From: Diadophis punctatus similis
Lineage: Eukaryota; Chordata; Lepidosauria; Squamata; Dipsadidae
Assembly (NCBI GenBank): GCA_023053685.1
Contig: JALIGW010000010.1
Span: 15,470,919 to 15,534,918 of the forward strand
Length of the DNA stretch: 64,000 nucleotides
Reading direction: 5' to 3'
The notes beneath the pieces are model-generated. The model saw only the letters and a program-made list of their open reading frames with translations, did no database searches and was not told where the DNA came from. The position numbers and the translations under genes are program-made. This document shows, one piece after another, positions 1-40,398 of the stretch; positions within the stretch are counted from its first letter, which is position 1; the number at the start of each line of letters is the position of its first letter.

Positions 1-960
1 GCTGTCTCAGAGGAGTTTTCATCTCAGACTCAACAAACTAGAGACGATCTGGTATCTGTATTTAAAGCTGTGGCAGTTAATATGGAATTATTGGAAAAAG
101 ATGTGGCTGAAATTAAACAAACTACGGTGACTTTGGATGAAAAAGTGGTTGAGATTCAGAACAAAATTGAAGGAACTGAGGCAGATTTAACGATGATCCA
201 GTATAATGATATGGAATTTGCTCTAAGATTAAGAGGGGTAAAAGAAAAAAAACAAGAGAATTTAAAAGAAAAGATATTGGAAGCATTCATGCAGATCTTG
301 GGGGGAACAAAAGCAGAATTGGACTGTCAGATTGATAAAATATATCGAGTTAATTCGTGGATTGCCAGACAGAAACATTTGCAAAGAGACATTGTAATAT
401 ATTTTACCACAAGGACATTGCGAAATCGAATTATACAGGCGGCTTTTAAAAACAAACTTAAGGTGGATGAACAAGAGATTTTGACATTTAAGGAAATTCC
501 TCCAAAAATACTGAAAGCACGCAAGGATTATGCCTTTCTGGTGGCAGAATTGAAAGACCAACAGATAAGATATAAATGGGAAATCCCAGCTGGATTAGTG
601 GTTACTTACATGGGAGAAAGATACAGACTCAATATGATTTGTAAAGCAAAAGATTTTTTTGCCAACATGTTAAAGGCCGGGATACCAAAATCACCAGAAG
701 GCAAAAGAAATGAGGAGGTTAAAAAAGAGGAAAAAGAAGATTTGTGGATTGCAGATCAGAGAGGAAATCTGAACGGTCAAGAAGAAACAAAGGACCCAAG
801 ACAGAGAGAAGTAATTGTTGAAAGTGAAGAAGAATTAAATCATCAACTTCAGTTGTTAACTCTTCAAAGCGAAGAAGAATTAGATCAACATAATTTCAGA
901 TGCCAACTTAAAGAATTATTGATGGCTCTAGGCTTGAAGGAGGGAGAAATTAAAAACTGA
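1..960 (+). CDS. L1 ORF1p-like RNA-binding protein (5' partial)
   Basis: The frame is open from base 1 to the TGA at 958-960 (319 codons), so the true start lies upstream of the window. The N-terminal part is a heptad-like coiled-coil. From about 198 it matches the L1 ORF1 RRM and C-terminal domains: 'MEFALRLRGVKE', 'IDKIYRVNSW', 'RDIVIYFTTRTLRNRI', then 'ILKARKDYAFLVAEL'. The tail is highly charged (Glu/Lys-rich). In the L1 family this protein trimerises, coats its RNA and acts as a chaperone during retrotransposition. No internal stop is seen in the visible part. Nothing downstream encodes ORF2. Confidence 0.85.
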   Translation, partial: AVSEEFSSQTQQTRDDLVSVFKAVAVNMELLEKDVAEIKQTTVTLDEKVVEIQNKIEGTEADLTMIQYNDMEFALRLRGVKEKKQENLKEKILEAFMQILGGTKAELDCQIDKIYRVNSWIARQKHLQRDIVIYFTTRTLRNRIIQAAFKNKLKVDEQEILTFKEIPPKILKARKDYAFLVAELKDQQIRYKWEIPAGLVVTYMGERYRLNMICKAKDFFANMLKAGIPKSPEGKRNEEVKKEEKEDLWIADQRGNLNGQEETKDPRQREVIVESEEELNHQLQLLTLQSEEELDQHNFRCQLKELLMALGLKEGEIKN

Positions 961-1868
961 TGTTTTAGTAATAGTAGGATAATTTAAAACAAATAAGATA
1001 TAAAAGTCAAGTGCATATATGAAGGCTGCATAAGGTTAGAGAAATTAGATTATAAGATTAAGTTTGTATTATAGGGATTTTTTTCTTTCTATTTTCCTCT
1101 TTACTTGTGGGGAATAAATATAGACTGTAATATAATGTAATAGAGATTAAATTGGTTTTAAAGAATAAGATTAAATTAATATTTGTACTGTAATGTAACA
1201 GAGATTAAGTGAAGGTGAAGATGTTATGTATTTTTATATATGGTTCAAATTGGTTTTGAATTTAACAATTGCTGCCAGGTTGCTGGTGGCATAATACCGG
1301 AAGAGGAAGATTCATCTACTATTCAAAAGTGAACATTAAGAGATGCGCATTTGGCAGGAAAAAATTTTTTTTTCATTAAAAACCGATGTTTCAGTAATAG
1401 TAGGATAATTTAAAATAAACAAGATATAAAAGTCAAATGCATATATAAAGGCTTAAGGCTAGAGAAATTAGATTATAAGACTAAGTTTGTATTATAGGGG
1501 GAAAAAATTTTCCTCTTTATTTGTGGGGAGTAAATATAGATTGCAATGTAATGTAATAGAGATTAAATTGGTTTTAAAGAATAAGATTGAATTAATATTA
1601 CAGGTTGGGGAATAAGTATAGAATGTAATGTAATGGTATAGAGATTAAACTGGTTTTAAAGAATAAGATTAAATTTATATTATAGGTTGATAAGTATAGA
1701 TTGTAATGTAATGTAATAGAGATTAAGTGCAGGTATGTTATGTATTTTTATATATGATTCAAGTTGGTTTTGAACTGAACAATTGATGCCAGGTTGCTGG
1801 TTGGTACAATACTGGAAGAGGAAGATTCATCTATTATTCAAAAGTGAACATTAAGAGATGTGCATTTG
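955..1868 (+). repeat. ~430-bp tandem duplication in the 3'UTR of copy 1
   Basis: The block starting at the ORF1 stop ('aaaaactgatgttttagtaa') recurs from 1378 ('aaaaaccgatgtttcagtaa') and runs in parallel to the 'gcatttggca' motif near 1350 and again near 1864. The first copy ends in an A/T homopolymer near 1360-1380. Smaller repeats ('gtaatgtaatagagattaa' type) occur inside both copies. Copy 2 at 22800-23250 has one version of this region, so the duplication is specific to copy 1 or its sublineage. Confidence 0.75.
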
Positions 1869-2141
1869 GCAGAGATGGCTAAAATTTCAGAACATTTTAA
1901 AGACTATTCAAATGATATATTTGGTAATGGAAAAGACGGATTGACTATATTCAAATCAAGTATCAGACTAAGAAGACCCAAATACATTGTGAAGGACATA
2001 TTTTAACTTTTAGCTTTTTGTTTAACGTATAATATAAGGAGTTAAGACCTAAAGATATTTGGAAGTTAACAATTTTTTTAGCATATCTTAATTTTATATT
2101 TGTGTATACTATATTACACCCTGTGTATGTTCTGGGAAGTC

Positions 2142-2205
2142 CAGGGAGGGGGAGGGGGAGATGGGGGGAGGGTTTGGGGGGAGGGAGGGGGGGAGGGGGC
2201 GAGAA
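2142..2205 (+). repeat. G-rich 3'UTR tract (possible G-quadruplex)
   Basis: There are many runs of three to eight G separated by single A or T, just upstream of the L1 3' tail. Equivalent tracts occur at 23396-23442 (copy 2) and 40088-40146 (copy 4). Mammalian L1 3'UTRs also carry a G-rich polypurine tract that forms quadruplexes; the same role here is inference. Confidence 0.7.
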
Positions 2206-2262
2206 AAAAGAAAAAATGCTTGTACTTTGTACTTATAAAACTTTTTCAATAAAAATAAAAGA

Positions 2263-2638
2263 TAAGAAGGATCCCATTCTTTTAGGAATAGTAAAATAAT
2301 ACATTCTCTTGGGTTTGGAACATCATCCACTTTTGATATAGTGCTAGTATAGCCTTGGTGGTTCCAAGTGGAAAGATTAGCAAGGAAGAATGGCTAGTGG
2401 TATGTACCTTGTTCCCTTAAGTGCATGGTACATGGAAATCTATATGATTTTAGATAATGGTTCAGTATGTAGAGAAGAATTAAGCAACTGTACCCCTAGT
2501 AAAACAACTGCATAGAATAAAGCCTAGAATGTAAGTAGACTGCATAGATGAACCAAGAGCGTTTGACTATATAAGGATTAACATTTAGTTAATGAGTTCA
2601 CTATTGATATCTATGATGATGCAATAAATGCTACTTAC
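2263..2638. other. Intronic sequence, no feature seen
   Basis: Moderately AT-rich sequence between the tail of ORF1-only copy 1 and the CNKSR2 42-base exon. On the minus strand this is the start of the next CNKSR2 intron, with donor GTAAGT at 2638-2633. No repeat family or ORF was recognised. Confidence 0.6.
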
Positions 2639-2680
2639 CACATGCAGAATTTTGTTCTCAGTTTCATGTACTGTGCAGTC
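2639..2680 (-). CDS. CNKSR2: CNKSR2 internal coding exon (42 bp, 14 codons)
   Basis: On the minus strand a pyrimidine-rich stretch ending TTTCTAG (AG at 2682-2681) precedes 42 coding bases, followed by a consensus donor GTAAGT at 2638-2633. The exon reads DCTVHETENKILHV. This is the CNKSR2 segment that directly follows the peptide encoded by 58250-58337; from memory the mammalian protein has Tyr where this exon has His. Both boundaries are phase 0, matching the phase-0 end of the upstream exon. CNKSR2 is a membrane-associated scaffold (SAM-CRIC-PDZ-PH) linking Ras/Raf/MAPK signalling to the postsynaptic density, and this exon lies in or just after CRIC. It was missed by ORF calling because of its size. 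Confidence 0.9.
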
Positions 2681-2764
2681 CTAGAAAGATAAGATGAACT
2701 GAAATCAATTTAATTAAATGAAACATTTAGGGGAAAGTGGTTACTTTTTAATACTTCAATAATA

Positions 2765-3114: not shown

Positions 3115-3850
3115 AAATAAATGAAAAATATGAACTAAGCTAATATAATATATGAATTAAACTAATATATGAACTAATTACATACAAAATGAATACAGGC
3201 ATCACAAAACTATTTTCTATGAAATGCCTTTTCAGAAATGAATTTGTTCTGAATCTGAAACAATTTGGGTCCTGGAAATTCTTATACTATTATGAAGCAT
3301 TTTGTCCTAATGCTTGTTGGTAGAAATAGTGGAATTAAGCCAGCTGCCAAAGTTCTATTTACAATGATTATTTTCTTAACTTTTAAGTTGCATAAACATT
3401 GAACTAATACCAAGAATTTCAATGAAAGAGTACATAGGACTAAAGGCCCTACAATTTGTTGATTTCTATTCATCCAACTTTCAATGTAGCTTAGTATTTT
3501 TTTTCAAACTGACAAAAATAGCCCCTTAACTCTTCTTTCAAAAGTATCAAGATGCTTCATTAATCTAACATTACTGCAATCTAACATCATTAAAATATAG
3601 TTATAGCTTTTGCAATTTTGAAATATTTCAGTCAAAATCACTGAATATTCTTAATACTTTAGCTTACAATTAAAATCTCTGTCTTTCTGCTCTCTCCCTC
3701 TCTCTGCCCATCTCTCTCCCCTACAGACATAAATATCCATTGCTAAAAGTTTCCATGAATAAGGTGAATGCATTTATAGAGAGAAAAAATAAGCCAACGG
3801 TGTGTCACCCACATTCAAGATGAACTGCTCCCATTACAAAATATAGAAAC

Positions 3851-4643
3851 ATGGAGTTTGCAATAAGAGTAAGAGGCATAAAAGAGAACAAACAGGAGAA
3901 CCTGAAAGAAATCATGTTGGAGGCACTTGAGCAAGCACTTGGAGTGAAGAAGGAAGATTTGGCATGGCAGATTGATAAAATATACCATGTTAACTCATGG
4001 ATGGCTAAAAACAGAAACTTACCAAGAGATATTGTGATCTATCTTACTACAAGAACATTACGCAATGATATTCAACAAGCAACGTTTGTAAATAAGCTCC
4101 AAGTGGAGGGACAGTAAGTGATGACAATGAAGGAAATTCCCCCCAAAATGTTGAAAGCCAGGAAGGATTATACCTTCCTGGTGGAGGAGTTGAGAAGACA
4201 ACAAGTACAATACAAATTCCAAATGGTTTGGTGGTTACACACCTGGGAGCGAGATATTGACTTAACACGGTACAGAAAGCTAGAGATTTTTATGAAGATG
4301 TTCTAATGGCTGGCACATCAAGATCTCCAGAGGGAAAATGAAAGGGGGATGGTACACAACAAGAGAGAGAAGAGCTGCTGAAAGTGGTACAAGAGGGAGC
4401 TCTTTCATTGGCCATTGAAATGGAACAAAGCCCAGAGGTACTTAACAGACAGGAAATGATTAAAGAACAAAGACAGACTAGAGCTGCCAAACAGAGACAA
4501 GAATTGAGACAACAAAGACATCAGATGGTACCTCAAGATATTCCTAAATCAGAAGTGGTGGGAGGAGCGAGACCAAAAGAAAAATCTAAGGTAGATCTTC
4601 AGGACATGCTCCAGACGCTTCAGAAGCCCAGAGATTGGAACTA
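3851..4643 (+). pseudogene. L1 ORF1 remnant
   Basis: The first stretch matches the ORF1 RRM ('IDKIYHVNSW', 'RDIVIYLTTRTLRNDI'). There is an in-frame TAA at 4115-4117, then the frame continues with the C-terminal domain ('KMLKARKDYTFLVEELR'). A frameshift follows near 4220-4310. A Gln/Glu-rich tail appears in another frame (4384-4643), ending immediately before ORF2. The coiled-coil N-terminus is absent. The copy is non-functional. Confidence 0.8.
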
Positions 4644-4644
4644 A

Positions 4645-5289
4645 ATTTCTTACCTGGAATGTTAATGGCTTGAACTCTCCACAGAAGAGGAGGAAAATAT
4701 TTCATTATTTAAAACAATTTAAGAATGACCTGATATGTCTACAAGAGACTCATATAAGGACACAAGACCAAAAATATTTGATAAATACAAGATTAGGTAC
4801 ACATTTTGTTGCAGCAGCTTCAGGAAAAAAATGGTATCGTTATATACGTGAAAAAAGATTTGATTGCCAAGTTAATAGAAGCAGATGATCAAGGAAGATT
4901 TTTAGCAATTGAACTTTTAATAAAAGGACAGAAAATACTTGTGATTGGCATATATGCTCCGAATCAACAACAAGAAAGATTTTATGATCTTTTGCACTCA
5001 AAGCTGACACAATGGGAGTACAAAACCTGCATTTTTTAGGGGATTGGAATGGTGTTTTGGATGTTCAGAAAGACAAGAAGGGCCCTAAGCAAAATATTTT
5101 CTCAAGAGCAAGATTGCCCAAATCCTTTTTTGAGATGATGGAAGACTGGGAGCTGAGAGATATATGGCGTGAAAGAAACCCTGCAGAAAAGGACTTTACT
5201 TTTTACTCAGCTAGACACTAGTCATTTTCAAGGATTGATTTTATTTTAATTACTAATGATCTTTTTTCTAGGGTGAAGAGAACGAAGAT
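4645..5289 (+). pseudogene. L1 ORF2 endonuclease domain, N-terminal piece
   Basis: It starts with the APE-type endonuclease signature (Asn-Gly-Leu-Asn-Ser) and contains 'DLICLQETH'. A frameshift near 4830-4850 moves the frame, then 'GIYAPNQQQERFYDLL' and a GDWN motif (GDFN in active copies) follow. The piece ends a few codons before the catalytic SDH, where the L2 tail begins. In L1 this domain nicks target DNA for target-primed reverse transcription. Confidence 0.8.
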
Positions 5290-5300
5290 TTGCACGAGGG

Positions 5301-5305
5301 TATTT

Positions 5306-5389
<84 letters not shown>

Positions 5390-5397
5390 TTATTTAT
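5301..5397. repeat. (TTTA)n microsatellite at the L2 3' end
   Basis: About 24 near-perfect TTTA units abut the 3' terminus of the antisense L2, so the array is an expanded LINE tail. Confidence 0.95.
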
Positions 5398-5663
5398 GTT
5401 TTCTTATATGCCGCCCTACTCCCGAGGGACTCAGGGAGGCGTACAGCAAAGAAAATACAAGAAACCAGCAATAAACATAATTAAAATCGAATACAAAAAT
5501 TAAAAATTCCAATATTAAAAAACATCCATCAACCAAACATACCCGGGGGAGAGCTCAGATGGATTCGTCTCTAACCCCCTGCCTGCAGGAAAAGCCATGT
5601 CTTAACGGCCTTTCAAAAGGCCAGCAGGGTGGGGATGGTTCGGGTCTCTGGGGGAAGTTGGTT

Positions 5664-8576
5664 CTAGAGCGCGCCCCCCCCAGAGAAGGCTCTCCCCCTA
5701 GGGCCCGCCAGCCGGCATTGCTTGGCTGACGGGACCTGGAGGAGGCCAACTCTGTGGGCCCTAACCAGTCGAAGGGAAGTATGAGGCAGAATGCGGTCCC
5801 GGAGATAGCCTGGTCCTAAGCCATGAAGGGCTTTAAAGATGATGATCAACACCTTGAATTGCACCCGGTGACCGATGGGCAACCAGTGCAGCTGGCGGAG
5901 TATAGGTGTCACGTGGGTGTACCTTGGCACACCCACCACAGCACGCGCAGCCGCATTTTGCACCAACTGAAGTCTCCGGATACTCTTCAAGGGTAGCCCT
6001 ATGTAGAGCGCGTTGCAGTAGTCCAGACGGGAGGTGACAAGGGCATGAGTGACCGTGAGTAGAGCCTCCTTCTCCAAGTATGGCCGCAACTGGTGCACCA
6101 GGTGAACCTGTGCAAAGGCCCCCCTAGCCACAGCAGTAAGATGATGATCCAATTTTAGCTATGGGTCTAGGAGGACCCCCAAGTTGCGGACCTGATCTGA
6201 GGGAGTTAATTTCGCTCCCTCAAGAACCAAGGAGGGACAGTTGTCATAGTCCTTAGGAGGCAATATCCAAAGCCACTCAGTCTTGTCGCGGTTGAGTCTG
6301 AGTCTGTTTCTCCCCATCCAGATCCTAACGTCGTCCAGGCACCGGCACATTACATCAACTGCCACACTGAATTGAGACGGGGTGGTGATGTACAGCTGGG
6401 TGTCATCAGCGTACTGATGGAAACACACCCCGTGTCTACGGATGATCTCCCCCAGCGGTCTCATGTAAATGTTAAACAGGATGGGCGAGAGAACCGAACC
6501 CTGAGGCACCCCACATGAAAGGGCCCTAGGGGACGATCTCTGCCCTCCTGTTAACACTGACTGCATCCTATCGGCAAGATAAGAGGAGAACCACCGCAAA
6601 ACGGTGCCTCCCACTCCCCACTCGCCGAGACGATGCAGAAGGATACCATGGTCGATGGTATCGAAAGCCGCTGAGAGGTCAAGTAGCACCAGGATGGAGG
6701 ACTTCCCCCCATCCCGGGCTCGCCAGAGATCATCCATCAGCGCGACCAAGGCAGTTTCTGTACTGTAGCCGCGCCTGAAACCCGACTGATAGGCATCTAG
6801 ATGATCTGTTTCCTCCAATAGCCGCAGAAGCTGAGTAGCCACCACCTTCTCCACAACTTTCCCTACGAAAGGTAAGTTGGAGACTGGACGATAGTTCTTC
6901 AAGTCAGCTGGGACCAGGGAAGGCTTCTTCAGGAGGGGTCTCACCACCGCAGTTTTTAACGACTGCGGTACGGATCCCTCCCTCAGAGAAGTGATGACCA
7001 CCGCCTGGATCCAGCTGCGTGCCACCTCCCTGCTGGCCGAAACCAACCAGGAGGGGCACGGGTCCAATAAACAGGTGGAGGCACCCATCGCCCCCATGGC
7101 TATGTCCACATCTTCGGGAGAAACAGGTGCAAAGTCCTCCCACAACGGTGGACTAAGACTTGCATCCAGTCAACTCAATGGACTCTGCCCAGCTGGAGTC
7201 CAGGTTCGACCAGATCTGAGCGACTTTATCCGACAGAAACTCTGCAAATTCCTCAGCTCTACCTTGCAAGTGTTCCTTGCTTCCCCCTTTGGCAAGGAGG
7301 GAGCGAATCACCCTAAACAAGGCGGCTGGGCGAGAATCTGCGGATGCGATAAGAGCAGAAAAATGAGATCGTTTTGCCGCCCCTATCGCCACTAAATAAG
7401 ACTTGATGTAAATTCTTAATAGTGTTCAATCAGATTCGGTTTTGCTGGCCCTCCAGCGGCGCTCCAGACGTCTCTTCTGGCGTTTCATCTCTCGGAGCTC
7501 CTCGGTAAACCAGGGAGCTTTCCGGGATCCACTGCCGCGGAGAGGTCGCAAAGGCGCAATTCGGTCTAAAGCCCCTGATGCTGCGGTGTTCCAAGCAGTC
7601 ACCAGGGAATCAGCCGAATTGTGTACCAGGGTTTCAGGTATCTCCCCAAGCTCCCTCTGGAATCCTTCCGGCTCCATTAGGTGTCTGGGGCAGAACCACC
7701 TAGTCAGTCCCGCCTCCTTGCGGGGGAGGAGTGGGGCTGCGAAATCCAACCTCAGTAGGAAATGATCTGACCATGACAGCAGAAGGCAAGTTGAAGTCCC
7801 CCAGCACCATAAGCCTGGGGAACTCAACTGCCAAGCCGGCTATTGCCTCGAGCAGCTCAGGCAGGGCCTTACTTACGTAGCTGGGAGGCAGGTACGTTAA
7901 GAAAAGGCCCCACCTGCACCCCTAAGTCCAACTTCAGAAGGAGCGTCTCACACCCAACAATCTCCGGGGCAAGGATCCTACGAGGATGCAGACTTCCACG
8001 CGTTATTATTGCCACTCCTCCCCCCCTTCCCTGGGGTCTGGAATGATGCTGCACTGAGAATCCGTCTGGGCATATCTCGGAGAGAGCTACTCCCCCCTCC
8101 TGGCCCAGCCAGGTCTCAGTTATACAAACCAGGTCCGCCCCCTCCTCTGTGATTAAATCACGTATCAGGGGGGCTTTGTTGATGATTGACCTGGCGTTAA
8201 GCAGCAGCATCCTGAGCCCAGGGCCCTGAAAACCCTGGTTGCCAGGTACTCGGGTTGAGCAAGATGGAACCACTTCAGAGGGGCCGGAACAAGGGATCGC
8301 TTGTAGACAGCGAGGTCTTATTCCCCAAGAGCGGCCCGCCCCTCTGCTCCCGCCATACCTGCCTCTCCCTGATATGACCGAGATGTTCCGGCTCTCGTAC
8401 CCTCCAGAGATCCCCTCCCCTCCCCCGCTGGTCCCCCTCCCTCCCTGCAGGCCATACACACCATTTTCACTAAGCCAGGTAGCAGGGCTCCGCCCCCATC
8501 CGCTTCTGTTTCCACACTCAGCAGAGGGGGACTGCACCCCAGCCCCTGGCTCAATCATTCTGTCCCACCCAATCAT
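5664..8576 (-). pseudogene. L2 ORF2 (endonuclease-reverse transcriptase), frameshifted
   Basis: Pieces in order on the minus strand: 8576-7869 endonuclease ('LLLNARSIINKAPLIRDLI', 'VCITETWLGQ'); 7827-7426 endonuclease-RT linker ('APWFTEELREMKRQKRRLE'); 7392-7153 linker; 7145-6159 RT fingers/palm with 'PQGSVLSPILFNIYM' and YADD; 6152-5664 C-terminal L2 domain. At least four frame changes or stops separate them, so the copy is dead. The RT piece of 328 aa is uninterrupted, suggesting moderate age. Confidence 0.85.
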
Positions 8577-9597
8577 TCCAATCTACACATTCATCCCCCC
8601 CAATCATATAATACAATCACACCAACACACTCCTTCCGGGGTGAGTTCAAAATGTCCAAAGGGAGTCTCCAGTCCTGTTAGAAATTGTCCCTTCCCTATG
8701 GTGTCTGCACCACATCCAATGATAGTTCTCAAGGGAAGGAATGTCCACTGCCCTGCCAGGGCTATACTCAGCAGTCCATCGCTCTACTTCATGGTGCTGT
8801 TTAGTCCAGGGCCCTCTATGGTGTACTGGAGAGCCTCGGAAGAGACGATGACTCCCCCTGCGGAGGTGGTATCGATGGTATCGGCACATTACTGGTCTAT
8901 TTCCCAGAGATAGTCCTCTACGAGCTGGCATATAAAGAGACTTATTCCTCTTCTTATCCCGCTTTCCCCCCTTGCTGAAAGCTGCAATAATCGCAGCAAT
9001 GGTGACGGTCGCAATGGAATCTATCAGCAAGCTCGTACGAAGAAGGTAGGGAGGTGGGAGGTAGCGTCAGACAACATAAGGCTCGCAATAATGACAGCGA
9101 AATGCTGCGGTGTTAAAAACAAGAGGAGGACGAAGTGGCAAGAGTTAGAGTTGAAAGCGGTAGAAGACTCCTAAGCGTCCAGCTAGTTTGATCAGGCTCC
9201 AAAGCTTCGGGTTTTAAAAGAGCTTTGGGTCTTAAAGAAAAAAAGTCCCACTCCTCCAGAGATTTGTAGATGTTGTAGATATTCCAATAAATATTTACAG
9301 TTAGTTGCAATTATTTTATCATCATTTGCAATCTCACGACGGAAACGGAGCGAAAATGGCGCCTCTGTTTGAATTCGGCGTCTCACAACTTCAGCACTTT
9401 CAGAGCTTCTGAGACCTCAATCCTTACAGAATGATGATTACCTTTCGTCTTGTTGTTCCCTGAGGTCTCCTCGTTCCTCTGCACATATAAAGGTGATATA
9501 TTTTAAGCTAAAACCACCGCAATTCAGTCAGTTTCAAATTTGGGAGAGCGGAGTTGCTCTCTCCCTCGCCCTCCCGTCGTGGCTCCAGTCCTGGTAT

Positions 9598-12330
9598 TGT
9601 CAGACCATAGCCCCGTTTGGATGGAATGGAATTTGGTCAAGGACCTAGAAGGTCTTGGAGGTTAAATGATAACTTGTTTAGATATGAGGATAATGTAAAA
9701 GAATGTAAAAGATTTATGAATGAATTTTTTGCTATGAATATGCAGAGGGGTACATCAATACAGATGGTTTGGGATGCAAGTAAGGCTTATATGAGAGGTG
9801 TCTTAATATATTTGAACAATAAATATAGAAGGAAGAAGGAATTTAAAAGAAAAGAACTGGAGGAAGAAATCAAAAAACAAGACAGGGTTTTAATTTCCAA
9901 ACCATCAGATAAGAAAATTAAAGAAACAATTAACTTATTAAAAGCTAAATTTAATATGTTAATGGCAGACCAAGTAGCAACTAATTTACAATATGCTAAA
10001 CACAATACTTTTTGTAATGCAAATAAACTGGGCAGGTGGTTGGCTTATATATTAAGAAAAAAGTAAAAATCAAGAATTGTAGAGAAGATTAAGTATAAGG
10101 GTAAAGAAGTTTTTGAACACGAAGCAATTAAAAAATCTTTTTTAGAGTTTTACTCAGGGTTGTATAAGGGGGATAAGGTCAAAGAGGAAGATATAGACAG
10201 ATATTTGCAAAATGGGCATAGAAATATAGCCTCTAAGGAGCAGACTGAAATTTTAAATCAACTGATAACTTCAGAGGAAATTTTGGCAGCTATTAAACAG
10301 TTAAAAATGGGTAAGGCTCCAGGGACAGATGGTTTAACAGCTGTTTATTATAAAAAATTTACAGGATGAAATGGTGGAACCTCTGAAGGTGTTATTTAAT
10401 AATATACAACAAGGAGGAGAAGTACTCCCAACTTGGAAGACTGCTTTTATCTCTTTAATCCCAAAAGAGGGTCAAGACCATACAGACCCTAAAAACTATA
10501 GGCCAATCTCACTTTTAAATATAGATTACAAAATTTTTGCTAAAATATTAGCAAATAGATTAATGATACTTATGCAACAACTGGTTCATCAGGATCAAAC
10601 TGGTTTTATAGTAGGTAGACAAATGAAAAGTAATGTAAGACAAATAATTAATTTATTAGAATATTTGGGAATGAATAACCAGGTACCTGCAGTATTGGTG
10701 TTCTTGGATGCCGAGAAAGCTTTTGATAGATTGAATTGGAATTTTTTATTAAAATTAATAGAAAAGATGCAGCTTGGAGAATATTTTACACAATCTATTA
10801 AGGCAATATATCAAAAACAAACAGCTCAAATAATAGTCAATGGTGGACTAACAGATAATTTTAATATAGAGAAAGGAACGAGACAAGAATGTCCCTTATC
10901 GCCATTACTGTTTATTTTGTCTATGGAAATTTTACTGAGCAAAATAAGGGAGTCTGAGATAATTAAGGGAATTAAAATAAGACAGGAAGAATACAAATTG
11001 CGAGCATTTGCGGATGACCTGGTGGTTACCTTAACTCAACCATACCAATCAATTATAGTGTTGATGGAAATTATTGATTTTTATGGACAAGTATCTGGTT
11101 TTAAAATAAATATAGATAAAACTAAAATAATAGCTAAAAATATGACTAGAAGTCAGGAGGAAGAAATAGAAAGGGTCACGGGATTTGAGACAGTTAAAAA
11201 GGTTAAATATTTGGGGGTTTATATTATGTCAACAAACACGAAATTATATCAGCATAATTATGAACCATTATGGCAAAAAATACAGAAAGATTTGGAAAAC
11301 TGGAAAAAACTACAGCTGTCTCTGTTGGGTAGGATAGCTGTAGTAAAAATGAATGTTTTACCAAGATTTTTTTTTTCAAATGATTCCTATACTCAAAAAA
11401 AGATGATAATTTGAAAGAGTGGCCAAAGGGTATTAATAAATTTATTTGGGCAGGGGGGAAACCGAGAGTAAATCAGAAAATAATGCAAGACTCAAGAGAG
11501 AGGGGAGGATTAAAAATGCCTAATCTAAGATTGTATTATGAAGCAGCTACCCTCTCAGCAATCACCGACTGGATCAATTTGACAGAAGATAGGATATTAA
11601 ATATAGAAGGGTATGGTTTGATTTATGGATGGCATGCCTATTTAGTGTATAACAAAAAAGTAGATAAAGCTTTTAAGAGTCACATATTAAGAAATGCTTT
11701 ATTGCGTGTCTGGAAGAAATATCAATGTAAATTAAACGATAAGGTACCTATATGGACAGTGCCCAGACACGCGATAGAGAATATAAACTTAGAGCAAAAG
11801 CTAGATAAGATTACATATAAAGAGCTTCTTTATGAAGAAGGAATTAGATTACAATTAAAACCAATGGAGCAACTAAGAGAAGGAATAATTAAGTCTTGGT
11901 TCCAATATGGGCAATTGCAGGCCAGATGGAAAGAGGATTCAAAAGTAGGTATCTTGCAGCAAGATGATAATTTGATAACTCAAACAAAGAATAAAGGTCC
12001 AATGCATATAAAGAGATTATATAATGTGATAGTTGAACTAGATTCGGAAACAGTGCTAGTTAAGGATTGCATGATAAAATGGGTGCAAAATATTGGAGAA
12101 CCTATAATGATGGAAACATGGGAGAACATATGGGTTAGAAATGTAAAATTTACACAAGCTCAAAATTTAAGAGAAAATTTCTACAAAATGTTTTGTAGAT
12201 GGCATTTGGATCCAAAAAAACTAGCTCGTATGTATCCTAATTTACAACCTAAATGTTGGAGATGTGAATGTGAAGATGCTACTTATTTCCATATTTGGTA
12301 GACTTGTAAGAAAATTAAGGCTTTTTGGAT
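9598..12330 (+). pseudogene. L1 ORF2 continuation (endonuclease end, RT, C-terminal domain)
   Basis: It resumes at the SDH catalytic motif of the endonuclease. The RT follows with 'MGKAPGTDGLTAVYYKKF', 'NYRPISLLNIDYKIFAKIL', 'VFLDAEKAFDRLNW' and the catalytic FADD at 11007-11018. The PQGxPLSP motif is altered to 'RQECPLSPLLF'. Frame changes occur near 10065, 10365 and 11414. The Cys-rich C-terminal motif ('CWRCECEDATYFH') ends in a TAG. Compared with the L1 at 44582-48330, roughly the last 110 codons are missing and a palindrome marks the junction. Confidence 0.85.
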
Positions 12331-12331
12331 T

Positions 12332-12372
12332 AAAATATGGTGGATTTAAAATTTAAATCCACCATATTAAAA
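12332..12372. repeat. Perfect palindrome at an L1 3' deletion junction
   Basis: An arm reading 'aatatggtggattt' is followed by its exact reverse complement with almost no loop. It sits where ORF2 stops matching a full-length L1 and the 3' end begins. Confidence 0.85.
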
Positions 12373-12587
12373 TGTTTGTACTTTATACTAATAAAACTTT
12401 TTGAATAAAAAAAAAGGAATGGGGTGAGGTCGATGGTAGATAATCTGAGGTTGAAGTTTTTGGGGTTTGGGGAAGAAACTACTGAGTCAGGTAAAGTGTT
12501 CCAGGCATTGACCACTCTGTTGTTGAAGTCGAATTTTTTGCAATCAAGTTTGGAGCGGTTTACATTAAGTTTGTATCTATTGTGAGC

Positions 12588-20570: not shown

Positions 20571-21053
20571 ACCATGGTAGTTTCCCACTGCTTGAGGAAT
20601 GAGCTACCAGGTGTCAAGGACAGTAGCTCCCTGAAATAATTTATACTGATCAGTTGGCAGGGAGGAAGAATTTTTGCATGTTAGTTTACACAATAAGTCT
20701 GCTTGCAGTACAAATGTGAGTGTGTGTGTGAGAAAGTCCTCATACAGAAATGGTCCTGAGACCTGTAAATGCCTGTGTGCTCCCAAGAAAGAGAGAGAGA
20801 AATCTTCTTTTTTGAACAAAGAAGCAGTCAGTTGCAAGGATTTGTGATTGTTGTTGTGAAGTATTTGACAGAATAAGGGAGATGAGAGAGACATCCCATA
20901 GAGAATGTGGGAGAGGAAGAAGTGAGATATATTTTGGAGTTAGAAAGAGTTATTTGTGAGTTCCTTTGTTGAAAAGATGTTGAATAGGACTTCCGGTGGT
21001 GCCGTGAGCCTCGCTGGATGCTCTTAATGGGCGCCCGATCCCAGGCTCCGTAA

Positions 21054-21089
21054 AAGCCGCCAGATACCACATCAGCTGTCTGGCGGCTT
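21054..21089 (+). promoter_or_regulatory. Conserved 5'UTR stem-loop of ORF1-only elements
   Basis: The perfect 11-bp stem AAGCCGCCAGA / TCTGGCGGCTT has a 14-base loop here. The same stem with a 7-base loop occurs at 27719-27747 and 37450-37478. Confidence 0.8.
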
Positions 21090-21579
21090 GGAAACTCCCG
21101 TCCCGGGCAAAGGGAGGGGAGAAGAGCAGATGGGCAGAGGTAGAGCCCCCCTAACACCCCAGAAGAAGCTCTGGGGTGCAAAGGGTGAGTGCTCCCTTGA
21201 AGCCTGTCATTAGCTCCGGACCTGGAATGCCTCCACTTATTTGTAGCGGAGCAAGAAGCTGCGACCATCTCTGCTGGTAACAAATGAATTTTAAAACTTT
21301 AAACAATGTAGCAGACGGAACATACCAGGAGAATCTAACAGCAAGTATTCTTACTTAACTCCAGTGTTGTTTGGTGGATTTTCTGAAAGTAACAAAGTAG
21401 CTAAAGATGGCGCTTGGAATTTCAAAGGGTGTGGAGAAACTGAAAGCTACTGAAAGCTTGTGAGAGTTCTGTTTCTTAACAGACGCTTGTAAGAAATCTC
21501 TTCTATTTCCTACTTGTTACTTTGATGGACTTTGCTTTTGCTTTTCTAATAAATATATAAGAATTAATACAAACTGAAG

Positions 21580-22785
21580 ATGTCTTTAAAACTGGCAAAG
21601 ACTGTTTCTTTTAAAGGAATAGAAAAAGTTGAAAATCTCTCTACTCAAATTGTTAATCTGCAAGATTTTGCCCCCCCCCCAATACAGACTTTTACGTTTG
21701 AGATGTGGCAGCAAGCTATGAAAGAAATGCAGAAGGAAATTGCTTTAGTAGTAAATAAAAAAATTAAAGAAATTAATGGAAAAATTACTGAAATTAATGG
21801 AAAAATACAAGCTGTCTCAGAGGAGTTTTCATCTCAGACTCAACAAACTAGAGATAATGTGGAAACTGCACTTAAAACGGTGGTATCTAACATGGAATTA
21901 TTGAAACAAGATGTGGTTGAAATTAAACAGACTACGATGACTTTGGGTGAAAAAGTAACTGAGATGTAGAAAAAAATTGAAGGAACTGAGGCAGAACTAA
22001 CGATGGTTCAATATAAAGATATGGAATTTGCTCTACGCCTAAGAGGGGTAAAAGAAAATGCACAAGAGGATTTAAAGGATAAGATTGTGGACGTACTCGT
22101 GAAGATTTTGGGGGAAACAAAAGTCCAATTGGCAGTACAGATTGAAAAAATATATCGTGTGAATTCTTGGTTTGCTAGACAAAATCATTTGCCAAGAGAC
22201 ATTGTAATATATTTTACCACAAAAGCATTGCGAAATCGAATCTTACAGGTGACTTATAAAAATAAGCTGAAGGTGGAAGATCAAGAGGTTTGGGTATTTA
22301 AGGAAATTCCTTCAAAAATACTGAAAGCACGTAAAGATTATACTTTTCTGGTGGCAGAGTTAAAAAAGCAACAGATAAAATATATATGGGGTATCCCGAA
22401 TGGATTATCGGTTATTTACAGGGCAGAAAGATATAGACTTAATACAATTGCCAAAGCAGAGGATTTTCTTGCCAATGTATTAAAGGTGGGGATACCAAAA
22501 CCACCAGAAGACAAAGGAAATGAGAATGTTAAAAGAGAGGGAAAGGAAGATTTGTGTATTCCACTACAGAAAGGAACTCTGAATAGACAAGAACAAACAA
22601 ATGATTCAGGACAGGTTAGAGAAGTATCTGTTGAAAGTGAAAGTGTTGGAAGGGAAGAAGAATCAAGTTACTCATTCCAGTCCTCAACTCCTCGAAGTGA
22701 AGCAAGATTAAATCGGCATATTTTCAGAAGTCAACTTAAAGAAATATTTAATTCCTCTCGCAGATTTGAAAGTGAGGGGAATTAA
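21580..22785 (+). pseudogene. L1 ORF1p-like gene, one in-frame stop
   Basis: The start ATG at 21580 gives a short N-terminus and a coiled-coil. A TAG at 21967-21969 interrupts, and the same frame continues through the RRM ('MEFALRLRGVKE', 'IEKIYRVNSWFARQ') and C-terminal domain ('KILKARKDYTFLVAELKKQ') to the TAA at 22783-22785. Apart from the single nonsense codon the 401-codon frame is open, suggesting a young copy. The closest relative in the window is the ORF1 at 1-960. Confidence 0.85.
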
Positions 22786-23603
22786 AAATTGATGTTTTAG
22801 TGTTAGTAGGATAAACTAAGGATAAAGTAAAATAAGTAAGAATAAAGTGTAAATGTATATATGAGGATGTATAAGGTTAGAGGAATTAAATTACAAGAGG
22901 TTTAATTATACAAGGTAAAGTGATGTAATAGAGATTAAATTGGTTTTAAATAACAAGATCAAATCAATAATATAGTTTGGGGAATAAGTATAGAAGGTAA
23001 GGTAATGTAATAGAGATTAAATTGGTAGAGATTAGAATTAAACTATATTATAGGGCGGAAATAAGTATATGGTTTAATCTGTTTTTGAACTTAATAATAG
23101 TGGATAGGTTGCTGGTGGTACAAAATTGGGAGTGGAAATTTTGGAATATTGTAAAGGCTATTCAAATGATATATTTGATAATGGAGAGGAAGGACAGATT
23201 ATATTTGAATTAAGTATTAGAATACGAAGATCAAAGTAGATTGTGACGGATATATTTCAATTTAAAATTTTTTGTTTAATTAATAGTATAAGGAGTTAAG
23301 ATTTTATGATATTTGGAAGTTAATAATTTGTTAGTGTATATTAGTTTTATATTGGTGCAGATTATATTATACCCTGCGTTATGTTCTGGGAAGTCTAGGG
23401 AGGGGGGAGGGGGAGTTGGGGGGGAGGGGGGGAGGGGGAGAAAATAATAAAAAATGCTTGTACTTTGTACGTATAAAACTTTTTCAATAAAAAGAAAAAA
23501 GAAAAAAGAAAAAGAAAAAGAAAAGAAAAGATGTTGAAAAGAGAAAGGAGAAGTATTGATTGATTGAAAAATGTGACTTTTTAGGGGTATTTGATGATGT
23601 CTC

Positions 23604-27505: not shown

Positions 27506-27718
27506 CAACTCTGAGCTACAAATATTCTCCTTTATTGTTACAGTAATGTATTATAAGAAAACCAGAAAGATGAAGATCTGGATGTCTGTTTTAGACCAGA
27601 GTGGAAGTTTGCATAACTAAATATTCCTTCACGTATAATATTCCCTTAAGACAGAAAACACTGAGGACTTCCGGTTTGGATTGCGCCATCGCGGAGCACC
27701 TTTCCGATTCTTCGTAAA

Positions 27719-27747
27719 AAGCCGCCAGAACAGCTGTCTGGCGGCTT
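27719..27747 (+). promoter_or_regulatory. Conserved 5'UTR stem-loop, copy 3
   Basis: Stem AAGCCGCCAGA / TCTGGCGGCTT with loop ACAGCTG-type sequence, about 55 bases after the element start. Confidence 0.8.
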
Positions 27748-28322
27748 TGAAATCTCTTCCCCGGGCAAAGGGGAGAGATGAGAGCTTGACAGGTGGGGTA
27801 GAGCCCCCCTAGTGCCCTAGGAGCCATCCAGGGGTGCGAAGGGTGAGGGCTCCCCATGCAGCCTGTCTCCTGCTCCGGGAATCCGGAAACCTCCGCTTTT
27901 GCGGAGCAAGATGCCGCGACCACCGCTGCTTCCAGAATGGGATTTATAATTATTTTTTGATTTAAAGAAGCAGACAGAGAGAAACAGGAGTGCAGATGGG
28001 CAAGTACTGAATTTTTTTTCTTCTTCAACTCCTCTGCTAACTTTCACTTCGGAAAGGAAACAAAGTAACAGTTAATAAGCAACAATATGGCAATTGAAGA
28101 AGGTGGCAGGAGAAGTGAAAGTGACTTTCATTTCGCTAGTGGCTTTTTTTCTCATGGAAACTTTTGACTTTGAAAACTGGCTTTTCTTTCTCTGTCTCCT
28201 GATCTTGGATTAAAGTTACAACTGATAGATTTTTAATAATAAAAGACTATTTGGTTTTGAAATTGGAAAGAACTTTAATTAGAGATTTGGCTTTTTCTCT
28301 GTACTCCTCTGGAAATACCATA

Positions 28323-29432
28323 ATGGCTTCAAAATCCTGAAAGACTGTTTTGAGCAAAAGAAACGACTATTCCTCTGGTTATACTTCCAAAATGCAACTT
28401 ACTACTGAGTTAACACCTCTACAGTCTTTGACACCCGAAAATTTATTAAGTACTTTAAAGATTATGAAAAATGAACTGATTATGGAATTTAACCAAAAAA
28501 TTAATGAAATAGATAAAAAAATGCAGGCTGCTTTAAAGAATATGGATCAACAACTTAGGACTGATGTGTTAGAGGTTTGTAAAGGATTAGCAACAAATAT
28601 TGAAGTTTTGGCGGATCGTATTGAAACAAATAAACAAGCTTTGGCAACCTCGGTGGAATATATAGATAAAATTCAAAATGACATTGCAAATTTTGAAACA
28701 GAGGTGTTGATGATGCAGTTCAGATCTATGGAAGTTGCTATAAGGGTGAGAGGGTTGAAGGAGGGATTATATGAAGATTTGAAAGGAAGGATGGTTGAAG
28801 CTCTGGAGCAGGTGTCTGGAATGTCTAAAGTGGAATTGGTCACACAAATTGACAAGATATATAGAGTCAACTCGTGGTATGCAAAACAAAAACACCTACC
28901 AAGGGATATTGTTATATATTTTACTACAAGAGCCTTACGGAATAGAATTATACAAGCAACGTTTAAGAGCAACCTTCAGGTGAACGGCCAGGAATTAATG
29001 ATTGGGAAAGAAATTCCCTCTAAAATGCTCAAAGCCAGAAAAGATTATACCTTTCTGATTGATGAATTTAAAAGATTAAATCTACAATATAAATGGGAAG
29101 CACCAGTAGGAGTAGTGGTGAAATTTTCTGGAAAAAGATACCGGCTTAATACGATAAAGAAAGCTACTGAATTTTATATCAATGTTTTAAAGGCTGATAT
29201 ATCCAGAATTCCAGAGGAAAGACGTATGAAGATAAAAGAGGAGGAGGAGGGAAAGCCACCCTTGTCGGATCAAAAGGAAACAGATTCAAAGAATCAAAGT
29301 GATTGGCAGAGCCAGATAGATGGGGAAAAGGAGACGGAGGATCGGGACCAGATGGGAGGCGAGTTGATAAATTTAAAATCATCAAGCTATAAAAAGATGC
29401 AACTATCAAGATACAAAAAGATGCAGCGTTGA
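28323..29432 (+). pseudogene. L1 ORF1p-like gene, early stop
   Basis: By alignment with copy 4 the start is the ATG at 28323. A TGA at 28338-28340 follows five codons later, after which the frame is open to 29432. Domains: low-complexity N-terminus, coiled-coil (about residues 50-130), RRM ('IDKIYRVNSWYAKQ', 'RDIVIYFTTRALRNRI'), C-terminal domain ('MLKARKDYTFLIDEFK'), and an acidic tail. A downstream ATG at 28392 could restart translation, which is speculation. Confidence 0.85.
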
Positions 29433-30190
29433 AACTTATTGGATGGATAGAGACTAATATGATTGTATTTATCCTTCTTTCTTCCCCTTTTCTTTTTTAT
29501 TTATTTATTTATTTTTCTTTCTCTAATTCCCTTTTTTTAAAAAAAATATTTTTGATTAATATCCTTTTAAGATTCAGAATTTTTCTGAAGTCAATAAGTT
29601 GATGTATAATAACATTATCCTATTAATATTATGATGAAATTTAGAGTTAAAATTTTTCTATTTAATATTTAGTTATTATCTATGTAATATTCAGTTAAGT
29701 TTTATTCAATTTTGAGGTTATTTTTATTATTAATATTTCTTTAAAAATTTAGAACTTTTTTTGAAGCTAATAATTTGATGTATGGTAATAGTATGTTAAT
29801 AATATTAGTTTAAGATTCTTGTATTTTATATTTAGTTATTATTTATGCAATATTCATTTAAGTTTTATTTAATTTTGAGGAAATGTTGCGTAGGGAAGAG
29901 GATTGAAAGGAGGAGGAAGGAAGTTTTTTGTTTGCTCATTTAAAATAAATATGTTTATTTAATAAAAAAAAATGTTTGTACTTTCTATTTAATATTTAGC
30001 TATTATCTATGTAATTTTGTACTAATAAAACTCTTTGAATAAAAAAAAGACAGAAAACACTGATTTCGTTGTCGTCTTGGGTGACATCTGTGAAAAAAAA
30101 TCAGGTGCTCAGGCATGAAAAATGTGCCGCTCAGACCCTATACTTTTCTGCTCAAACCGAAAAAAAATTAGAGGGAACATTGGCCAGGAT

Positions 30191-36282: not shown

Positions 36283-37449
36283 CATATTTTCCTCCTTGAA
36301 GTACAAGAATACAGCAACATGCAAGCCAAATAATGGCAAAAAAGTAGACGCTGAAAATTAGATATTAAAAAAACAACAACCCTGGAAGGGTCTTGACCAG
36401 ATATGTCAAACTCAAGGCCCACAGGCCAGATCCTCCCCGTGATGTGGTTAGATATGGCCAATGGGGCCGCCCTGGAAACAGCAAGGGGCTGGCCCCACCG
36501 CCTTGGTCCCAGCCCACCCCAGCCAGGGCAGGTGCTTCCCCTGTGCATGCGCACAGGAGGCAGCAAGAGTGCCCAGCAGCAGCTCATTGGCCTCACCAGG
36601 CCTCACCTCACCACACCTTGCCTTCGCCTCACCCCCCAGCCCCACCAGCGTGCTCTCAAGGAGCCCTTACATTTCAAGGTAAAGGATTTTGCTCACCGTC
36701 ACCATGTTCAGCTCCCCACTTCCCCCCTCCCACTCCTGCCCCAGCAGAGCTGACACAATGGGGTAAAAGGATGAAACCCAAGTGCATGAGAAACAGCCAT
36801 GGAAATCTCGAGCAAATGAATAGAAATAATAAAGGTCAATGATCACTAGCCATTCATAAATATTTGATGACACCTTTCTTGTTCAGGTTCTACCTCTCTG
36901 CCCCTTTTGTGAGGGGGCGCGGCAGAGATGGGAAGCTCCCAAGCCGCAAGGCGGTTGGTATTCGAGTGCATGGCGCAAAGGCAGTGGTTCATTTCCAAAA
37001 CAACCAATTCTTTCTTAAGCAGGGTCACATTGGCGGTGGCCGAAAGATGGCAATGCAAAAATCTCTAGGGCGGCCGTCCTCTATCTCAAGGGTCCTAACC
37101 TCTGAATAAACAGGCCAAAGACTGACAAGATCTCAATTGTGGAGAAGCTCCCTGGGTACATCACAAGAACTGATCTTAAGGGCTTCTCAATTGCAGTCAA
37201 TAGGATTTGGGGCCAAGGGAGCACACTAGGATTTTCAGCCGGCCGGGGGGAATCGAGCTGAAGTTCACCTAGGTTTGTGTCTTTGAGCCAAGCTTTCCCA
37301 AAGCTGGAGAGCCATAAGCTCCTCCTCTGCCGTACTTCAGAGGGGAATCCAGCACAAAATATAACTTCATTTTCCCACTCTTAAGAACAGTAGCAGCTCC
37401 GACGGCGTCGCTGGCGCTCCTCGCTGGGCGTCCTTCCAATTCCCTGTAA

Positions 37450-37478
37450 AAGCCGCCAGAAAAGCTGTCTGGCGGCTT
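37450..37478 (+). promoter_or_regulatory. Conserved 5'UTR stem-loop, copy 4
   Basis: Stem AAGCCGCCAGA / TCTGGCGGCTT with a 7-base loop (AAAGCTG). Confidence 0.8.
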
Positions 37479-38051
37479 GAAAATCTCTCCCCGGGCAAAG
37501 GGGAGAGATGAGAGCAAGACAGGTGGGGTAGAGCCCCCCTAGTGCCCTAGAAGCCAACTTAGGGCGTGAAGGGTGAGGGCTCCCCAGGCAGCCTGTCTGT
37601 TGCTCCGGGAAATTGGAAGCCTCTGCTTAGAGTGGAGCGAGATGCCGCGACCACCGCTGCTTCAACAATGGGAAGTATAATTATTTTAAATTTAAAGATA
37701 GCAGCCAGAGAAAGGCAGGAGTCCAAAAGGGCAAGAAGAATAAACTTTGACTTTAATTCCATTGCTGGCTTTCACTTCGGAAGCAACAAAGTAGCTTAAC
37801 AAGGAAGAAGCAACAATATGACGATTGGAGATTTGGGCGTGGAAGTGAAAGTTATTTTCGTTTTGTTACTAGCTTTTTCTAATGGAAACCTCTGATCCTG
37901 AGAAATGATTTCTTCTCTTTTTGTTTCTTGATTTAACTTACAGTATTATAAAAGATAAAAGATTAACTGGCTTTGGAGTTGGAAAGAACTTTGCTAGGTA
38001 TAGATCTGGGTTTTTTTTTCTTCTCTTTGTCCTTTTTTTGAAAATACTGAA

Positions 38052-39140
38052 ATGGCTTCTAAACCTGGAAAGACCTTTGTGAATAAAAGAACTGAGTACT
38101 CTTCTGGTTACATTTCAAAGATTCAATTTACGCCTGATTTAACATCATCAAAGTCTTTAACACCTGAAAGTTTATTTAATACTTTGAAAGTTATGAAAAA
38201 TGAACTGATTATGGAATTCAATTTAAAAATCACTGAAATAGATTAAAAAATGCAGGCTGCTTTGGAGAAGATGGATTTACAATTGAGGGCGGATGTGTTG
38301 GTGGCTTGTCGGGGACTGGCAGTAAATATGGAAGTTTTGGAGATGGATCTGGAAAAAAATAAGCAAGCTCTGATAACCTCAGAGGAATACATAGCCAAGA
38401 TTCAAAATGATATAGTAAATTTGGAAACAGAGCTGTTGATGTCTCAATTCAGAAAGATGGAATTTGCTATAAAAGTGAGGGGCCTGAAGGAGGGAAAATT
38501 TGAAAATTTGAAAGGAAGGATGGTAGAGGCCCTGGAGCAGGTGTCTGGAATGTCTAAAGAGGAATTGGCTATGCAAATTGATAAGATATATGGAGTCAAT
38601 TCTTGGTATGCAAAACAAAACCATCTGCCAAGGGACATTGTAATATATTTTACTACAAGAGCTTTGCGGAATAGAATTACACAGGCGACCTTCAAGAATA
38701 ATCTTCAGGTAAATGGTCAGGAAATAATGATATGGAAAGAAATTCCTTCTAAGATGCTTAAAGCCAGAAAAGATTATACCTTCTTGGTTGATGAGCTAAA
38801 AAAACAAAATTTACAATATAAATGGGATGCACCAACAGGAGTGGTCGTGAAATTTTTGGGAAAAAGATACTGGCTTAACACAATAAAGAAAGCTACAGAA
38901 ATCTACATCAACGTTTTAAAGGCTGATATTTCTAAAATACCAGAGGAAAGAAGCATGAAAATAATAGAGGAGGAGAAGAAAAATCCAGACATATTGGTTC
39001 AAGATGAAACAGCTCCAAAGATTCAAAGTGATGGGCAGAGCCAGACAGATGTTTGTGACGTGGAAAAGGAGATGGAGGATTGGGGTCAGATGGGAGGTGA
39101 ATCGACAGATTCGAAATTGTCAAGTGACAGATGGTGTTGA
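38052..39140 (+). pseudogene. L1 ORF1p-like gene, one in-frame stop
   Basis: ATG at 38052 (MASKPGKTF...). A single TAA at 38244-38246 interrupts a frame otherwise open to the TGA at 39138-39140 (363 codons). Order: Ser/Thr-rich N-terminus, coiled-coil, RRM ('IDKIYGVNSWYAKQ', 'RDIVIYFTTRALRNRI'), C-terminal domain ('MLKARKDYTFLVDELKKQ'), acidic tail. Copy 3 has a sense codon at the site of this stop, so the mutation is private. Confidence 0.87.
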
Positions 39141-40398
39141 AATTTATAGGATGGTTGGAAAGATCAACAGGATTGTATTTTTTTTGTTTTTTGTTTTTTT
39201 TTTCTTTTTCTATTTTTTCTCGTAGTATTATTATTAATATTTTTTGATGGTAGTTCCTTTTTAGATTATTTTTTTTCTTAAATTTTTATTATTAATATAT
39301 ATATATATATCATATATTTTGAAGTTAGCAATTTGATATAGTGTAATATTATGTTATTAATATTTTGTGGGATTTTAGGATTAAGTTTAAGATTGTTGAG
39401 GTATAAGGGGTTAGGTTTTACTTTTTTTATATTATTATTATTATATATATTATATATTTTGAAGTTGATACTTTGATGTATTGTAATATTGTTATTAATA
39501 TTGTGTTTGATTCTATGATTTTATGATTAAGTTTAAAGTCTTAGAGGTATAAGGGGTTATTTTTTAAAACATGGGAATAAACAATTTGATAGAATATTTT
39601 AAATATTGAGGTATTGTGATTAGGTATAAATATTTAATGTTTAGTTAATGTTTATGTAATATTTACTTAAGTTTTGTTTTGTTTGTTGACTGAAAGGGGG
39701 AGGAAAGGTTTACTTTTGCTCCTCTTTTATTTTTATTTTTTACTTTTTCTCTCTTTCTTTTTTATTATTATTAGTTTATAGGTAGATTATATAAAAGACG
39801 GAGGTTTAGATATGTAAAGTATAGTTTAATATGATGTATGATGTATTAATATAATGTTTTTTCTTTTTTCCTTTTTTTATATATATATTTGTTAATCTTT
39901 CTTTTTTAATTTCTTATTTTCTTTATTTTTTATTATTTTTATCCTTCTTCTGATTATGTTTTGAATAGTTTTTAAAAAAAATTGGAGTTAAAGATTTTTT
40001 TTAAAAAAGTGGAAATTAAGAACTTGCTTTAATTTAATTTAAATTTATTTTATTGAATATTATGCCCTGTACTTTCTCTGGGAAGTCCGGGGGGGGAGAG
40101 GGGGGAAGGGAAGGGGATGGGTTGGGGTTAGGTGGGAAGGGGGGGAGAAAAATGAAAAATGTTTGTACTTTGTACTTATAAAACTTTTTGAATAAAAAAA
40201 AAGAAGGGTAGCAGCCAAGAATCCACTCAGTAGATTAGTTTCAGAAAGCAAAAGAGACGCAGGGCCAGATCCAGTGGTGGGATTCAATCGGTTCGCACCA
40301 CTTCAGCCAAACCGGTTGTTAAATTGCTGGCTGGCCCCACTCCGCCCCACCCAGCCACTACTTATTGGCCTCGCACACCTTGGCTGGTGCCTTAGAGC

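Follow-up and report, generated by a model that had tools for sequence, protein, structure and literature searches.

ORF1-only, HAL1-like L1 units in the genome of Diadophis punctatus similis, probably of separate origin in squamates

Introduction

Can L1 retrotransposons that keep their first open reading frame (ORF1) and lack a working ORF2 form lineages of their own outside mammals, where HAL1 is described as an ORF1-only derivative of several origins (PMC5753468)? The question is raised by a stretch of 64,000 nucleotides (nt) of Diadophis punctatus similis (contig JALIGW010000010.1, positions 15,470,919-15,534,918; hereafter the window), in which four units carry an ORF1 of L1 type and a common 3' terminus (4/4), and none a working ORF2 (0/4). 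We consider it very likely that these units are half-L1s of the HAL1 type, that is, deletion derivatives of a resident L1 family with ORF1 and ORF2, presumably copied by a helper and with an ORF1 mostly under selection. Such half-L1s probably arose separately in squamates, and twice.

Four ORF1-only units of two subfamilies

All four units lie on the plus strand. Copy 1 (1-2262), whose 5' end and target-site duplication (TSD) are not visible because the window start cuts it, has an open ORF1 (1-960, 319 codons without a stop). Copy 2 (20985-23524), of the same subfamily and delimited by alignment and TSD, has its ORF1 at 21580-22785 with an in-frame TAG at 21967 (codon 130). Copy 3 (27665-30046), supported by alignment, TSD and other copies in the genome, has an ORF1 (28323-29432) that contains a TGA at codon 6; copy 4 (37398-40200, by alignment and TSD), of the copy-3 subfamily group, has its ORF1 at 38052-39140, with a TAA at codon 65 (38244-38246) and an ATG at 38250. 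A sequence-only reading of this DNA had described the frames as mostly open, which holds, with no stop in copy 1 and one in each of the other copies. Its division of the units into two ORF1 subfamilies is confirmed by pairwise alignments: copies 1 and 2 are 77% identical over 1,245 columns and copies 3 and 4 78% identical over 1,728 columns, in both cases through ORF1 and past its end.

The units start with (A)GGACTTCCGG in copies 2 and 3, and about 6 nt further in for copy 4; the 5' untranslated regions (UTRs) of these three copies are homologous. A search of the window for the 3' terminus (up to three mismatches) gave four matches, all within the units or within a broken element with ORF1 and ORF2 described below, and did not pick up copy 3, whose end is altered. 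In that copy, a piece of the 3'UTR (29655-29691) recurs at 95% identity inside the terminal sequence (29982-30018). A Pfam scan of 10 window open reading frames assigned reverse transcriptase (RT) or endonuclease (EN) domains to four and nothing to six.

Insertion as short units

Copies 2, 3 and 4 had been reported to bear readable TSDs, and these are found on the plus strand at 20971-20984 and 23525-23538 for copy 2 (14/14 positions), at 27648-27664 and 30047-30063 for copy 3 (a perfect 17/17), and at 37383-37397 and 40201-40215 for copy 4 (13/15), the weakest of the three. Wrongly paired flanks score 4-6, and among 300 random pairs the score of 9 of copy 4 was reached by two and a score of 14 by none. 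The bottom-strand nick sites of the three complete units (TTTTC/AA, TCTT/AA and TTCTT/AA) are compatible with an L1-type endonuclease, whose consensus is TTTT/AA. The TSDs and the A-rich 3' end indicate insertion as a unit in 3/3 complete window copies. Loss of ORF2 after insertion is rejected, since the TSDs enclose short units and the junction downstream of ORF1 is common to copies; the earlier claim that the units moved without ORF2 is supported.

A survey of related copies in the genome

A search of the window's own genome assembly (1.78 Gb) with the ORF1 of copy 3 gave 12,906 candidate places, of which 113 were scored and 48 near the top of the list, including the window copy, were fetched; these places are the best ORF1 matches and not a random census. 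The units' 5'UTR precedes ORF1 in all of them (48/48). Downstream, 43/48 places have no ORF2 match at an expect value (E) up to 1e-5, and in the remaining five the best match begins either no earlier than the apparent 3' end (L005, L008, L011, L044) or 2.6 kb after ORF1 (L040); ORF2 within one unit length was found in 0/48. The junction between ORF1 and the 3'UTR, compared by eye, is common to 46/48 places (the exceptions being L030 and L038), and in L041 its homology stops about 30 nt further on. TSDs at both ends were recognised under a strict rule, which missed the perfect TSD of window copy 3, in 30/48 places, with a length of 2,410-2,773 nt (median 2,641). An open ORF1 of 360 codons or more, beginning at the same ATG, is present in 35/48 places, and its length is exactly 369 codons in 29. 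Pairwise differences among these 29 intact copies span 1.2-11.9% with a median of 5.2%, which bears out the recent activity proposed earlier only in part.

The corresponding search with the ORF1 of copy 1 gave 11,939 candidates, of which 125 were scored and the downstream side of three was fetched. Here the junction is common to 3/3 places, with 92-97% identity across it. The checks proposed with the sequence-only reading included a comparison of copies with and without ORF2 and a test of junction identity, together with the outcome that would speak against it, namely copies that normally have ORF2 and share no junction. Among the sampled places that outcome was not found (48/48 best ORF1 matches of the copy-3 type without ORF2 within a unit length, the same junction in 46/48 and 3/3), and the analogy with HAL1 drawn at the time is still the best reading of the units.

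Origin from a resident ORF2-bearing family

The sequence-only reading overlooked a broken relative of the same clade at 3840-12418 (plus strand), which begins inside ORF1, is interrupted at about 5307-9600, lacks the end of ORF2 and carries the units' 3' terminus at 12369-12416, its last 48 nt being 96% identical to copy 4. With its RT as the query, 37,866 candidates were obtained and 117 scored, and in 13/117 rows the frame stays open, without a stop, over 1,200 amino acids (aa) or more; two neighbouring rows look like duplicates. One of these rows was sampled at both ends (L050 and L049), and three others at the expected upstream distance. In L050, whose element starts inside ORF1, an ORF1 tail with a VGGAR box continues into ORF2, and in L049 the end of ORF2 is followed by a G-rich tract and then by the units' 3' terminus (1/1 sampled). 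Two of the three places sampled upstream have a 5'UTR that is 71-77% identical to that of the units, with the same CTTCCGG start, and that is tied to ORF2 by distance; the third has a different repeat at the expected position. This ORF2-bearing family, of the same clade and sharing ends with the units, is a candidate helper.

Copies 1 and 2 preserve a decayed end of ORF2. In copy 1, a relic of about the last 80 ORF2 codons lies at 1761-1976 (plus strand; match to L049 with z 29.6 against letter shuffles, tblastn E 5e-12), with a partial duplicate at 1247-1323 (plus strand), and in copy 2 a relic of the C-terminal end lies at 23146-23242 (plus strand; match to L049, z 7.0). It was also found in 2/3 copy-1-type places, while the similarity of L054 to copy 1 stops short of the relic. 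The same comparison of copies 3 and 4 with L049 gave none (z 0.1 and -0.6). The relic is visible only with an ORF2 end from the same genome as the query: with 126 ORF2 queries from distant proteins, nothing below E 0.1 was found in the stretches after ORF1 (best E 0.13), in a scan whose positive controls fell below 1e-80 with relatives, yet which is too insensitive for relics. The best match of ORF2 queries to the ORF1 tails (E 0.028) was taken as chance. An upstream extension of the relic is unsupported against the window ORF2 (z 1.2 for 961-1240 of copy 1, z 2.2 for copy 2) and reaches z 5.0 against L048, which makes the picture mixed. The earlier description of the units as ORF1 plus an L1-type 3' end without ORF2 therefore stands as regards a working ORF2 (absent in 4/4), and not as regards the relic in copies 1 and 2. 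Because they keep this end of ORF2, a direct trace, copies 1 and 2 are internal-deletion derivatives of the ORF2-bearing family.

Copy 1 also contains overlapping tandem duplications after ORF1 (949-1872; 949-1183 with 1375-1599, and 1108-1357 with 1606-1872), which extend over the last part of ORF1 and over fragments of the ORF2 relic. In the broken element, the end of ORF2 and most of the 3'UTR are gone (12318-12416), and a 17-nt perfect inverted repeat is seen by eye at the deletion junction, as if from fold-back copying. Another ORF2-bearing element (L048, 1-1103), located directly 5' of an ORF1-only insertion, has several internal deletions, with parts of EN, of RT and of the end of ORF2 remaining. 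Such deletions may occur often in this L1 clade.

Such recurrent deletions, in L048 and in the element at 3840-12418, would agree with the view that every copy is a new splicing or deletion product of an ORF2-bearing parent, with no lineage at all. We hold this to be very improbable: the junction is the same at 46/48 and 3/3 places, divergence among copies is graded, and the VGGAR box, present in the ORF2-bearing relatives examined, is missing from all four units.

A stretch of about 220 nt in the 5'UTR is, compared with shuffles, predicted to be strongly structured in copy 2 (21047-21275, z -4.49), where it is homologous to copies 3 and 4, in copy 3 (27711-27930, z -5.18) and in copy 4 (37444-37661, z -4.28), all on the plus strand. 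Its sequence also occurs in ORF2-bearing L1s (L051 at 202-431, L053 at 319-547), and we regard the structure as part of a leader that the units took over from the parent. Covariation is weak and not clearly above that of shuffles: both sides are changed in 6/66 pairs, a number reached by 44/500 shuffles, in 5/63 pairs among 44 sequences, and in 10/63 pairs among five diverged sequences, in which the first stem is paired differently. Rfam was searched at E up to 1, and the 12 matches, none of them in the units' 5'UTR, all belong to microRNA families.

One loss of ORF2 or two

Homology after ORF1 is seen within each pair of copies (z 33.9 and 7.4) and, until the last ~50-170 nt are reached, not from one pair to the other (z -0.2 to 1.3). 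Two separate losses of ORF2 are what we find the more probable history. The other possibility, to which we give clearly less weight, is that a single loss founded both lineages and that the 3'UTR of copies 3 and 4 was swapped later. It would agree with the homologous 5'UTRs, and a single clade of the four units is not rejected by the approximately unbiased test (p 0.365); yet the best ORF1 trees require two changes, the sequences after ORF1 are unrelated between the pairs, and an ORF2 relic is found in copies 1 and 2 only.

ORF1: protein, constraint and a shared stop codon

The structure predicted for the ORF1 protein of copy 3 has a long helix and, after it, two small domains (predicted local distance difference test score 63, predicted template modelling score 0.34, moderate values), and its best PDB matches are human LINE-1 ORF1p (2YKP, E 6.7e-10). 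The Pfam family of L1 RNA-binding proteins (PF02994) lists unit ORF1s only below its cut-off, and copy 4 not at all. The unit ORF1 aligns with L1 ORF1 proteins of snakes, eight of the 12 database relatives being named (Ahaetulla seven, Pituophis one). By its predicted fold, the protein is L1 ORF1p-like. The VGGAR box is found in 8/12 database relatives and in the window's ORF2-bearing element, and in 0/4 units. In one Pituophis protein model (P0126), RING-type domains are joined to this L1 ORF1, probably through an error of gene prediction or the exonisation of a copy.

The ratio of nonsynonymous to synonymous substitution rates (dN/dS) in ORF1 is 0.20 (0.14-0.28) between copies 3 and 4, and 0.61 (0.41-0.87) between copies 1 and 2. 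Constraint is strongest in the RNA-binding core (0.11 in copies 3 and 4, 0.39 in copies 1 and 2), and the tails are among the least constrained parts (0.47 and 0.88), along with the N-terminal part of copies 1 and 2 (0.93, with a wide interval). Among the 29 intact genome copies, which were chosen by ORF1 score, dN/dS is 0.20-0.28. Over 150 sampled pairs of 44 places, the 3'UTR has a median divergence of 0.080, the 5'UTR one of 0.052-0.056 and ORF1 one of 0.051; at fourfold sites, in 31 open copies, the difference is 0.096. The median number of indels per 100 nt, in this biased sample, is 0.00 in ORF1 and 0.93-1.89 in the UTRs. As copies 3 and 4 share their junction, the constraint on their ORF1 acted in a lineage without ORF2.

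The TAA at codon 65 of copy 4 recurs in two other places of the genome (L033 and L047), and 46 of the last 49 scored rows of the copy-3 search contain a TAA, its position being known for copy 4, L033 and L047 only. An ATG lies two codons downstream of the stop and the rest of ORF1 is open in copy 4, and therefore an N-terminally shortened protein is possible.

These observations bear on whether ORF1 matters to the units at all. It might be a passive passenger of elements that spread like a long short interspersed element (SINE), by means of a 5' promoter and an L1-type 3' end, the open frames merely reflecting youth. The stop common to copy 4, L033 and L047, most simply explained by inheritance, and perhaps the TAA in 46 of the last 49 scored rows, would suit this explanation, as would the relaxed N-terminal part and tail of copies 1 and 2. 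Against it stand the low dN/dS of copies 3 and 4, a pair that was not selected by ORF1 score, and especially of their RNA-binding core, the scarcity of indels in ORF1 and the ATG behind the stop, and we judge a mere passenger to be unlikely. Selection on ORF1, as proposed in the sequence-only reading with dN/dS as its check, thus stands for copies 3 and 4 and is weaker for copies 1 and 2, and the codon-65 stop speaks against the view that an intact ORF1 in cis is strictly required.

Proposed mechanism and its weak points

The half-L1s very likely originated as follows. Internal deletion in a resident L1 family removed ORF2 and left the 5'UTR, ORF1 and 3' terminus in place. The unit RNA would be transcribed from the 5'UTR and inserted by the ORF2 protein of a related full L1, giving units of ~2.4-2.8 kb with L1-type TSDs. 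There are two lineages, each with its own junction between ORF1 and the 3' end, that of copies 1 and 2 still bearing the ORF2-end relic. Selection for the most part maintained ORF1, the probable reason being that its protein packages the RNA from which it was made, and the variant with the codon-65 stop was copied as well.

Several points weigh against this interpretation. The ORF2 scan of the 48 places was blind to decayed relics, and a sample picked by ORF1 similarity favours intact ORF1 and thereby lowers dN/dS. A loose TSD score was passed by 37/48 true pairs and also by 10/48 mismatched flanks, a control that covers this score and not the strict rule. Mobilisation in trans is deduced from shared ends and the type of TSD, and the proposed descent of copies 3 and 4 from the ORF2-bearing family from ORF1, the 5'UTR and the last ~50-170 nt. 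Finally, as the codon-65 stop is shared, an intact ORF1 in cis may be dispensable.

Other elements of the window

A second L1 with ORF1 and ORF2 (43471-48330, plus strand) belongs to another clade and served for comparison only. The two best matches of its ORF2 are from Naja and Pseudonaja (53-54%); next come an unnamed protein and matches from Salvator, Podarcis and Anolis (~40-44%); shorter matches of 50-60% are found in Protobothrops, Micrurus and Varanus. On the minus strand, 51668-53557 is an open frame of 629 aa with the reverse transcriptase domain of another type of long interspersed element (LINE), a relative of which, within 5664-8576 and likewise on the minus strand, splits the broken element with ORF1 and ORF2.

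Comparison with known elements and significance

Other retrotransposons resemble the units in part. SpIREs, the spliced human L1 insertions, are likewise L1 copies without inner sequence, whereas the short form in squamates seems to propagate as a lineage whose junction is fixed. The HeT-A element of Drosophila telomeres is also a non-LTR (long terminal repeat) element with the first open reading frame only that borrows the enzyme of another element, but it is of a different clade and telomere-specific.

Closest are the HAL1 elements of mammals, which, as far as the consulted portions of the sources go, share with the units descent from L1, an ORF1 as the only frame, a poly(A) tail, TSDs and a requirement for the RT and EN of full LINEs (PMC5753468, PMC5322556). 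Compared with that description, the units match L1s of their own genome in ORF1, 5'UTR and 3' end, and snakes in ORF1, and they show two junctions, an ORF2 relic in one lineage and a shared codon-65 stop. Given named ORF1 relatives in snakes and a parent family in the same genome, the origin of the units, judged from these sequence relationships, looks separate from that of mammalian HAL1. In the portions consulted, half-L1s are described for mammals (PMC5753468, PMC5322556, PMC4859970, PMC8535693), including 3'-truncated ORF1 RNAs together with HAL1 (PMC4859970) and HAL1 activity in rat (PMC8535693). We found no paper pairing HAL1 with Squamata in the open-licence literature, where reptile half-L1s were absent from the titles and abstract beginnings among the squamate, lizard, snake, gecko and Anolis matches listed, and the passages of the squamate repeat survey PMC6050309 and of PMC13295347 contain no mention of half-L1s; an existing report or repeat-library entry is possible.

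If squamates are a separate case, in which ORF2 was probably lost twice, then losing ORF2 while retaining ORF1 would be something that can happen to L1 repeatedly, and no accident of the mammals. As parent, derivative and stop-carrying variant occur in one genome, the reason for the retention of ORF1 is directly testable. More speculatively, and in our estimate rather doubtful as a whole, the units could form a long-lived half-L1 system with an ORF1 protein of its own kind that has lost the VGGAR tail, packaging its own RNA via the structured 5'UTR shared with the parent and starting at the inner ATG in the codon-65 variant. If this were true, that variant would be a natural test of how much ORF1 an element mobilised in trans needs in cis.

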